Of a stretch of 64,000 nucleotides of DNA, positions 6,984 through 25,335 are shown piece by piece (the stretch's first letter is position 1; each line of letters opens with the position of its first letter). Both the position numbers and the translations under genes were made by a program. The stretch is from Alphaproteobacteria bacterium. GTDB lineage: Bacteria; Pseudomonadota; Alphaproteobacteria; Ferrovibrionales; Ferrovibrionaceae. The notes under the pieces are model-generated. The model searched no databases, was not told where the DNA came from, and saw only the letters and a program-made list of their open reading frames with translations. The stretch spans positions 124,001 through 188,000 of the forward strand of contig JAFKFH010000014.1 in assembly GCA_017307375.1 (NCBI GenBank), written 5' to 3'.

Positions 6984-7432
6984 GCGATGGCCTCGAGCGT
7001 GGCAAGATAGTCCGGCGGCAGGCCGCGTGCCCGTGCGCCGGCCAGGATGGCATCGAGATAACGCCGGCTGGGCCGCGGCTCGACCAGCACGGCGTCGGGC
7101 AGGCCCAGATAGGTGAAGGCGGCAACCGGCGCCTCGCCCTGCACGACCGTCAGCTCGCCACGCCGGTAACGCGGCGGCGACCGATCGAGACCCTCATGAC
7201 GGTCGAGCGTCGCGACATGGGCCGGCGTCAGGTCGTAGAGCACGCCCCAGACGTCGCTGCCCGCGCAAGGGTCGAGCGAGGCGACCGCACCCTTCCAGGT
7301 CGACGCCGAATAGAGCGGGAAATGGAGCCGATGCCCGGGCAGGCGTGCCAGGCCGCGAAAGCCGTGGCCGGGGCAGCGCGCCTCCATCTGGGCGCCATCG
7401 AGATTGGAGCCGTAGGCGAAATAGAGGGTCAC
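6974..7432 (-). CDS. Gamma-glutamylcyclotransferase (AIG2/GGCT) family protein
   Basis: 152 residues. The N-terminus TLYFAYGSNLDGAQM carries the YGSN loop that binds the gamma-glutamyl group. The segment LDRHEGLDRSPPRYRR near residue 75 contains the glutamate expected to be catalytic. Family members release 5-oxoproline from gamma-glutamyl peptides. The start is a GTG that overlaps the TGA of the upstream TPR gene in a GTGA arrangement, and the 3' end overlaps the secreted hydrolase gene. It is the middle gene of a tight three-gene operon. Confidence 0.88.
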   Translation of the reverse strand: MTLYFAYGSNLDGAQMEARCPGHGFRGLARLPGHRLHFPLYSASTWKGAVASLDPCAGSDVWGVLYDLTPAHVATLDRHEGLDRSPPRYRRGELTVVQGEAPVAAFTYLGLPDAVLVEPRPSRRYLDAILAGARARGLPPDYLATLEAIACC

Positions 7433-8802
7433 GCCGCGTCCGCGGCAAGCCGCTGCGCGGTCGCCGTCGCCGCGGCGCCGAGATCGCGGAGGCCGAGACC
7501 TTCATAGAGCCGCGCCAGCAGCCGATGGGTCGGCGCGACATGCGGCCGCGCCAGACGCCGCAGCTCGACCAGTTGCTGGGCCGCGCCCAGATCGCCGGCC
7601 TCGATCAGGGCACGGATATAGAGCTGCTCGAACAGGTCGCGCTGGGCATGGCTGCCGCCGATCTCGTTCCAGCGGCTGCGGGTCTGGGCAAACAGCGGCA
7701 CGGCGGCCCGCGCCTCGCCCTCGCCCAGTTTCAGCAAGCCGCGGGCCAGCGGCACCGCCACCTCGGCCCATGGCGCGCGGGCGGCGCCGGTCAGCATCTC
7801 GGCATGGGCCGCCATCGAGGCGACGAGGTCGCGGGCCTGCGGCCGGCCGGTCCGGGCGAGCCCATAGACGTAGTGCAGGTCGAGGAAGGGTTCGACGTGA
7901 TCGTCGACCCGCCCCGCGAGATGGTCGGCGACATCGTCCCAGCGCTGGCCGACCGGCACGCCGTAGCCTTCGAGCCGGGCCAGCATCGCCACCGCCCCCG
8001 CCTGATCCTGCGAATAGGTCTTGTCGATGCCCCAGATCTGGCTGTCGAACAGCGCCAGCACCTCGTCATAACGCTCGCGGTCCAGCATGAACAGCGCCAG
8101 ATGCCACCAGATATGGGTGTGCATGAACGAGTTCAGCCCGACCCAGCCGTCCGACAGCGCGCGCAGCGTGGTGATGCCCTCGTCGATCCGGCCGGTGGTT
8201 TCCAGCGCATGGGCCAGCGCATGCTGGGCCCAGACTTCGTTGCGGTTCAGCCCGATCGCGCGGCGCGCAGCGGCCTCGGCCCGGTCGAGCAGATGGCATT
8301 GTTCATAGGCGAAGGCGGTCATGCCCAGCGCGTGGGCGTCGTCATGATTGGCGGCCAGCACCGGCAGCAGCGTGCGCAGCATGCCGGCCCAGTCGCCGCA
8401 GCCGATCCGCCGGGTCTGCATCAGCCGGGCGACGGCAAGCCAGCGCGGCTCGATTTCCAGCGCCGCGTCGAAAGCCCCGAGCGAGGCCAGCGGATCGTGG
8501 CGTACCCAGGCGGATACCGCCTCGACCAGCAGCCGCTCATGCGGTAGCGCATGCTGCGCCGCATCAATGGCTGCTGCAATATAATGCAACGCGCGGGTAT
8601 GACTCTCATGATTTTCCATGAACATCATGAGAACAGCGCTCAGGCATTGTGCAACTGCACAATGTTTATCCTGTTCGGCGCTTTCGAGGATTGCAGCGAA
8701 ATCGGTGCCGCCCGCGAGGAACGAGCGCTGAAAACGATTAATCGCTTCAAGGGTTTGGCCGGAACCGACGGTCAGAGCGACGCCACGATCGTCCCGATCC
8801 AC
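7429..8802 (-). CDS. TPR-repeat protein, TTC38-like
   Basis: 457 residues of helical repeats with TPR character, for example HALGMTAFAYEQCHLLDRAEAAARRAIGLN near residue 170. The layout resembles the TTC38 family, which has no defined enzymatic role. I chose the GTG at 8802, because GGAGG lies 5 nt upstream. The TTG at 8814 lacks a Shine-Dalgarno and the nearby ATG is out of frame. A terminator-like hairpin with a T6 tract sits just upstream of the ribosome binding site. The gene leads a coupled operon with the cyclotransferase and the secreted hydrolase. Confidence 0.85.
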   Translation of the reverse strand: MDRDDRGVALTVGSGQTLEAINRFQRSFLAGGTDFAAILESAEQDKHCAVAQCLSAVLMMFMENHESHTRALHYIAAAIDAAQHALPHERLLVEAVSAWVRHDPLASLGAFDAALEIEPRWLAVARLMQTRRIGCGDWAGMLRTLLPVLAANHDDAHALGMTAFAYEQCHLLDRAEAAARRAIGLNRNEVWAQHALAHALETTGRIDEGITTLRALSDGWVGLNSFMHTHIWWHLALFMLDRERYDEVLALFDSQIWGIDKTYSQDQAGAVAMLARLEGYGVPVGQRWDDVADHLAGRVDDHVEPFLDLHYVYGLARTGRPQARDLVASMAAHAEMLTGAARAPWAEVAVPLARGLLKLGEGEARAAVPLFAQTRSRWNEIGGSHAQRDLFEQLYIRALIEAGDLGAAQQLVELRRLARPHVAPTHRLLARLYEGLGLRDLGAAATATAQRLAADAA

Positions 8803-8817
8803 GCATGCCTCCAATGC

Positions 8818-8845
8818 AAAAAACGACGGGCTATAATGCCCGTCG
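8818..8845 (-). terminator. Intrinsic terminator or attenuator in the leader of the TPR operon
   Basis: On the minus strand a perfect 8-bp stem (CGACGGGC / GCCCGTCG) with loop ATTATA is followed at once by six T. It stands directly before the GGAGG of the TPR gene. A transcript entering from the right would be stopped here unless the hairpin is prevented from forming. Confidence 0.55.
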
Positions 8846-8848
8846 CGC

Positions 8849-8877
8849 TTGACTTGTGCTGCGTCGCAGCATAATTT
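8849..8877 (+). promoter_or_regulatory. Candidate promoter of the small RNA
   Basis: TTGACT at 8849-8854 is followed by CATAAT at 8870-8875 (15-bp spacer) or, read as TAATTT at 8872-8877, a 17-bp spacer. Transcription would start near 8882, at the foot of the first sRNA hairpin. Confidence 0.55.
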
Positions 8878-8881
8878 TGTT

Positions 8882-8964
8882 TTCGACGCTTCGGCGTCGT
8901 TCGCCCTTCCTGGGCGTTTCCTCCCTAAGACTTGGGCTGCCGGTTTTCCGGCAGCCTTTTTTTT
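8882..8964 (+). ncRNA. Candidate trans-acting small RNA with an anti-Shine-Dalgarno linker
   Basis: About 83 nt with three ordered elements. Hairpin 1 is CGACGC-UUCG-GCGUCG (8884-8899), closed by a UUCG tetraloop. Hairpin 2 is CGCCC-UUCCU-GGGCG (8902-8916). A linker (8917-8934) containing UUUCCUCCCUAAG stays unpaired. A perfect intrinsic terminator follows (9-bp arms 8935-8943 and 8948-8956, loop UUUU, then eight T at 8957-8964). A sigma-70-like promoter precedes it. Exposed CCUCC segments are a mark of alphaproteobacterial sRNAs that block ribosome binding sites. No protein gene uses this terminator. I do not assign a named family. Confidence 0.65.
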
Positions 8965-9124
8965 GTTCTGTCCCGGCGCGGCGGATTAGAAAGGAAATTG
9001 CGCCCCCGCGTCAAGAGGCGAATTGAGCTTGCGCGGCTGACAGGGTGAAAATGATTTAGTTTCGCTCTCGAACAAAATCCGCCGCCCCTTGCCCGCACAG
9101 GGGCAGTTTGGTTTGCTTTTGGGC

Positions 9125-9556
9125 ATGAGCGAATCACCGGCCGCACATCCGCTGCGCGAGATCACCAGCTATCACGCACACGTCTATTTTTCCGATGATG
9201 CGGCGCGCGACCGGGCCGGCTGGGTGCGCGATCGCGTGGCCGAGCGCTTTCGGGTGCAGATGGGGCGCTGGCACGATCGCCATGTCGGCCCCCATGGCGC
9301 GCCGATGTACCAGATTGCCTTCACCACCGACCTGTTCGCGACGCTGGTGCCCTGGCTGATGCTGAACCGCCGCGGCCTGTCGGTGCTGGTCCATCCGAAC
9401 ACCGACAATCCGCACGACGATCATCTGGTGCACGCGCTGTGGCTGGGCCCGCCCCTGCCGATCGACGGCTCGCGCCTGCCGAAATCGCTGCGCGATACCG
9501 GCGGGGCGATCGAAGTGATAAATCCGAATACCCTCCCCTCGATCGATCCAATCTGA
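9125..9556 (+). CDS. DOPA 4,5-dioxygenase family protein
   Basis: 143 residues. The family motifs are present: SYHAHVYF near the N-terminus, the central [17 protein letters not shown], and [19 protein letters not shown] near residue 100, which supply the histidines expected to bind iron. Characterised relatives open catechol rings, but most bacterial members have unknown substrates. The ATG at 9125 leads straight into the domain. The ribosome binding site is weak. An aminotransferase starts 74 bp downstream on the same strand. Confidence 0.88.
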
Positions 9557-25188: not shown

Positions 25189-25335
25189 CGGCATCCTCCG
25201 CGAGAGACCGACGCCTTTGTCCCGCCGGCGCCCGGGACGGACTATCCGGATTGCGCCGCAGCAATTCGCTACGGGTTGACGAATCGGCGGCCGGGGGTCT
25301 TCTCTGTCGCCTGACCAGACGATCAACTTTTTCGG

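Follow-up and report, generated by a model that had tools for sequence, protein, structure and literature searches.

On sequence grounds, the interval 8849–8964 holds a genuine, conserved and ordinary member of the αr8/MmgR family, encoded as a stand-alone small RNA (sRNA) gene. Its predicted transcript is very probably a trans-acting αr8 RNA (MmgR/SisA, RF00519) that would act by anti-Shine-Dalgarno pairing. The initial annotation had already read the locus as an sRNA gene of the anti-Shine-Dalgarno type, and this is now supported by an Rfam match, by conservation of the linker and by covariation in the terminator. Coordinates refer to the window, the whole 64-kb stretch of DNA analysed (G+C content 68.6%), and the features are the following.

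7429–8814, minus strand: left neighbour, TPR-like gene
8849–8854, plus strand: −35 box TTGACT (five of six bases as in the consensus; direct sequence reading)
8860–8871, plus strand: predicted PhaR/AniA-type operator TGCGTCGCAGCA, inside a dyad at 8854–8874 in the promoter spacer (exact match to TGCRNYGCASMA)
8870–8875, plus strand: −10 box CATAAT (five of six bases as in the consensus; 15-nt spacer; direct sequence reading)
8882–8964, plus strand: predicted sRNA transcript, 83 nt (start placed from the −10 box; folds)
8884–8899, plus strand: 5′ stem-loop CGACGC-UUCG-GCGUCG with a 6-pair stem (folds; the Rfam match covers only its last four bases)
8896–8971, plus strand: match to RF00519 (suhB/MmgR, αr8), model positions 1–77 of 77 (67.5 bits, cut-off 41, E = 9.3e-12)
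8902–8916, plus strand: family hairpin CGCCC-UUCCU-GGGCG with a 5-pair stem (fold, Rfam match, alignment)
8917–8929, plus strand: linker UUUCCUCCCUAAG
8917–8926, plus strand: αr8 10-mer seed UUUCCUCCCU, anti-Shine-Dalgarno (conservation; same 10-mer as in PMC12559287)
8934–8964, plus strand: intrinsic terminator, 10-pair stem and eight U (fold, terminator scan, covariation)
9125–9556, plus strand: right neighbour, DOPA dioxygenase gene (start 160 bases past the terminator)

Gene layout, fold and family

Both promoter boxes named in the initial annotation are present where it had placed them, and TTGACA or TTGACC stands in a similar position before the dyad in three other αr8 copies (L002, L017 and L010). 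A promoter scan called no promoter at the sRNA locus because the 15-nt spacer lies outside the 16–18 nt that the scanner requires. The surrounding genes encode a TPR-like protein, a DOPA dioxygenase and an aminotransferase, and all three proteins are encoded only at the window's own locus among the loci compared, most of which span about 3 kb each. As initially observed, no protein gene appears to share the sRNA terminator: the left neighbour lies on the minus strand, pointing away, and the right neighbour begins downstream, an arrangement that also led to the rejection of a 3′-UTR or attenuator origin. In the gap that separates the sRNA promoter from the divergently oriented TPR-like gene, an inverted repeat at 8823–8846 has a minus-strand T-run and may serve transcription of the minus strand as a terminator or as a leader attenuator.

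The segment 8880–8964 folds with −40.7 kcal/mol (z −5.81), and none of 200 shuffled sequences folds equally well. The two hairpins described at the outset, one of 6 bp with a UUCG loop and one of 5 bp, are recovered, and the linker that had been called exposed is so in the ensemble fold, the ten seed bases being 95–100% unpaired. The terminator, originally described as a perfect 9-bp stem with eight T, consists of nine Watson–Crick pairs plus one basal G–U pair (8934–8943/8948–8957), with the eight T at 8957–8964; it has the most pairs among the 12 terminator-like sites listed for the first 20 kb (mean in shuffles 9.4).

The 34 bases 5′ of the family hairpin have a mean z of −2.33 in 40 αr8 copies, compared with −0.34 for control segments from the same loci, with single copies ranging from about 0 to −5.6. 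Single folds of these 40 copies show a 5′ stem-loop that differs in sequence between genera and retains its stem; the case for this stem is made from such folds and not from pair counts because the 5′ part of the alignment (A1) aligns poorly. A third stem-loop is not new to the family, since MmgR has already been described with three (PMC7143759).

The covariance search against Rfam that had been suggested as a check returned a match to the full RF00519 model, which supersedes the earlier statement that the RNA could not be placed in a named family. This is the single match at gathering thresholds across the whole 64-kb window; one overlapping match from the RF00519 clan scored below it, and sub-threshold matches at the sRNA to SorY, anti-hemB, sbrA, ar9 and others were rejected as all lie far under their own cut-offs. 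RF00519 matches occur in 41 of the 61 genomes searched (above the cut-off in 38) and, within the host's own order, in all 18 genomes examined (above the cut-off in 17). Membership in the αr8 family also suggests Alphaproteobacteria as the class of the host.

Alignment A1 comprises 21 of the 25 places from the host's family (L009, L059, L064 and L066 are omitted). Nine of the ten seed bases (TTTCCTCCC) are invariant in all 21 aligned copies and the last T is present in 20, so that the linker conservation anticipated for related genomes is borne out; AGACTTGGGC is likewise invariant in these copies of the order. The covariation anticipated for the stems is found in part. In the terminator, six of ten pairs carry compensatory changes in which both sides are altered and pairing is retained, whereas the family hairpin is nearly invariant across the order and consequently yields almost no evidence of this kind.

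The locus thus combines a score above the curated cut-off, a single-stranded seed 3′ of a weak hairpin and a Rho-independent 3′ terminator, all features of αr8 RNAs. Linkage to an FGase gene, which is common but not obligatory in the family, is absent, the four FGase genes found lying elsewhere. With MmgR of Sinorhizobium meliloti it shares a full-length RF00519 match, three predicted stem-loops, an intrinsic terminator and, between −35 and −10, a PhaR-type dyad. MmgR is, however, reported as a 77-nt RNA without a second αr8 copy in its genome, whereas the host has two copies above the cut-off. The resemblance to SisA–D of Caulobacter crescentus lies in the same 10-mer seed past a weak hairpin, the terminator and the presence of several copies per genome. 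In contrast, sisA is described as adjoining an FGase gene, which neither above-cut-off host copy does, and according to PMC12559287 no conserved motif lies upstream of sisA–D, whereas both host copies carry the PhaR consensus.

An AbcR (αr15) identity has to be weighed against this assignment. AbcR sRNAs are described as having partial suhB homology and unpaired CU-rich motifs and as regulating ABC-transporter mRNAs (PMC7143759); the RNA reported here similarly exposes a CU-rich anti-Shine-Dalgarno motif, and solute-binding proteins make up ten of the 27 seed-matched genes considered below, in line with the transporter mRNAs targeted by AbcR1 and AbcR2. Those two RNAs are, however, given as 120 and 114 nt long with two CU-rich motifs, whereas the present transcript would be about 83 nt with a single CU-rich linker, and the best Rfam model is RF00519, matched over its full length with the overlapping same-clan match scoring lower. 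AbcR membership is accordingly rejected as highly improbable, and the αr8 assignment is retained.

A predicted PhaR operator in the promoter

The initial annotation left the trigger of the sRNA open. A candidate is now available in PhaR (AniA), which probably gates transcription of the gene; the predicted binding site is the exact consensus at 8860–8871, TGCRNYGCASMA being the PhaR consensus deduced for Bradyrhizobium diazoefficiens (PMC6201568). A conserved dyad has been reported in the mmgR promoter (PMC8401924), and in S. meliloti mmgR is repressed by PhaR, which shifts the mmgR promoter in EMSA; these shifts are reported to be abolished when the palindromes are omitted or mutated (PMC12542648).

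Of 40 αr8 copies, 21 have the consensus in the 100-base span between positions −120 and −20 relative to the seed, with 0.15 expected from shuffling and six occurrences in 986 control windows from the same loci. It is found in 16 of 25 copies in the host's own family and in five of 15 in other families, and according to kinship labels the copies that carry it span five families of the class. The 40 copies, which also underlie the 5′-hairpin counts, come from 56 above-cut-off places, of which 15 were left out; L022 was also omitted, having a broken T-run that the search expression does not accommodate. L022 carries the consensus, and the count becomes 22 of 41 if it is included. As some of the 40 copies come from near-identical species, they are not independent.

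In the host genome, which comprises 7.54 Mb in 41 contigs, a phaR-type gene lies on contig 30, the contig that also carries the sRNA, some 33 kb upstream and outside the window. Hfq, PHB synthase (PhaC) and phasins are encoded as well, and of the three phasin genes identified, two are preceded by the PhaR consensus. Further exact 12-mers of the consensus occur in the window at 25252 (plus strand) and 8552 (minus strand).

The dyad could instead be the site of another regulator or a chance palindrome, with the gene controlled otherwise, for example by NtrC, which has been reported to activate S. meliloti mmgR (PMC8401924); the strict consensus is indeed absent from 19 of the 40 αr8 copies. Such an explanation is unlikely given a chance expectation of only 0.15 in 40, the presence of the motif ahead of two phasin genes in the host and the EMSA binding of PhaR to the S. 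meliloti mmgR promoter (PMC12542648), and repression by PhaR remains the preferred interpretation of the dyad.

Other αr8 copies

The second above-cut-off αr8 copy of the host (L002; contig 16, 203492–203568, minus strand, 62.2 bits) immediately follows a thiolase-family gene of the same orientation. It has the same UUCG 5′ hairpin and seed, preceded by TTGACA, a PhaR consensus of its own and CATAAA. The existence of this near-identical copy, together with the 15-nt promoter spacer at 8849–8964, could indicate that the latter is a silent or decaying gene and that the contig-16 paralogue provides the active αr8 RNA. This is rather improbable, since the seed and the PhaR consensus at 8849–8964 are intact and its terminator stem is regular (8934–8957), whereas that of the contig-16 copy is irregular; a functional gene at 8849–8964 is therefore favoured.

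A weak third RF00519 match in the host reaches 31.4 bits. A sub-threshold αr8-like RNA (L003; host contig 3, 597129–597205) has GCCTCCCT at the seed position and is preceded by a TTGCGTTGCAACA dyad, and similar GCCTCCC variants are seen in relatives (L060, L069 and L070); these RNAs perhaps form a sister sRNA family. In another genome (G050, contig 7, 54432–55030; L018/L055), three tandem αr8 genes lie inside 600 bases, two of them with the PhaR consensus.

Mechanism, targets and significance

Caulobacter SisA belongs to αr8 and shares the 10-mer. It has been reported to pair with the 5′ UTR of a TonB-receptor mRNA, upstream of the start codon, and thereby to repress this mRNA, as demonstrated with compensatory point mutations; it is also reported to repress a broad gene set and to be titrated by the sponge CrfA (PMC12559287). 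Since the identical 10-mer of SisA pairs upstream of a start codon, anti-Shine-Dalgarno repression is the best mechanism to propose here. The single-stranded seed would pair with ribosome-binding sites of the GGGAGG type and repress translation of a set of mRNAs, probably in an Hfq-dependent manner as judged from homology and the presence of an hfq gene. Repression of the sRNA gene would come from PhaR (AniA) bound to the dyad in the promoter spacer, and would be lifted once PHB granules titrate PhaR away. The predicted target mRNAs are most likely to be those for nutrient uptake and carbon use.

The pattern GGGAGGAA-N2–10-ATG has 94 matches in the host genome compared with three for the reversed pattern, and the control AGGAGGAA at the same placement has 42 compared with six, a few overlapping matches at single sites being counted twice in these figures; the excess of the seed pattern over AGGAGGAA is not significant (Fisher p = 0.06). 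In G+C-rich DNA, GGGAGG is in any case a strong Shine-Dalgarno sequence. Solute-binding proteins account for ten of 27 seed-matched genes and three of 23 controls (p = 0.10, not significant), and with permeases and ATPases added the figures become 12 of 27 and five of 23. The seed-matched genes derive from the first 30 of the 94 matches, with L076, L083 and L085 dropped, and the controls from the first 30 of the 42, after removal of six for which no frame could be used and of one duplicate (L150); all ten solute-binding genes and all 23 controls were checked individually. The best seed-matched genes, all of them candidate targets, encode a DctP-type solute-binding protein, a member of the alanine dehydrogenase family and a putative cyclase (L137, L142 and L143). 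The two excesses, neither of them significant, are suggestive of nutrient uptake, and the case for this being the main target class is about evenly balanced.

Direct targeting of phasin mRNAs, as suspected in S. meliloti, was looked for as well. The ribosome-binding sites of the host phasin genes pair with the seed at −8.8, −3.6 and −12.6 kcal/mol, compared with −28.1 kcal/mol for the full complement, and no good seed match was found at phasin mRNAs across 31 phasin loci, in a table that is rough because the frame or start codon is uncertain in several of them. These poor matches do not support direct phasin repression, and in this respect the host gives no indication of the phasin down-regulation associated with MmgR. 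With no more than one mismatch allowed, the seed has nine complementary sites (TTAGGGAGGAAAC) beyond the two sRNA genes, and six of these precede reading frames of at least 258 codons. None of the nine resembles a close CrfA-like sponge, with no run of five T within about 100 bases downstream, which differs from the situation described for SisA; a weaker sponge in the host is possible.

The gene is in itself ordinary, a new member of the known αr8 family. What the sequence comparison adds is the occurrence of the PhaR consensus in many αr8 promoters, with the proviso that the literature search on such breadth was non-exhaustive. This breadth makes a general circuit from PHB to sRNA a testable proposal. 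Tentatively, and with somewhat less than even confidence, PhaR control of αr8 sRNAs may be old and widespread, with PHB granules titrating PhaR and so releasing an sRNA that lowers nutrient uptake. If so, the PHB state of the cell would be a common input of αr8 sRNAs, and a storage polymer would regulate import through an RNA.
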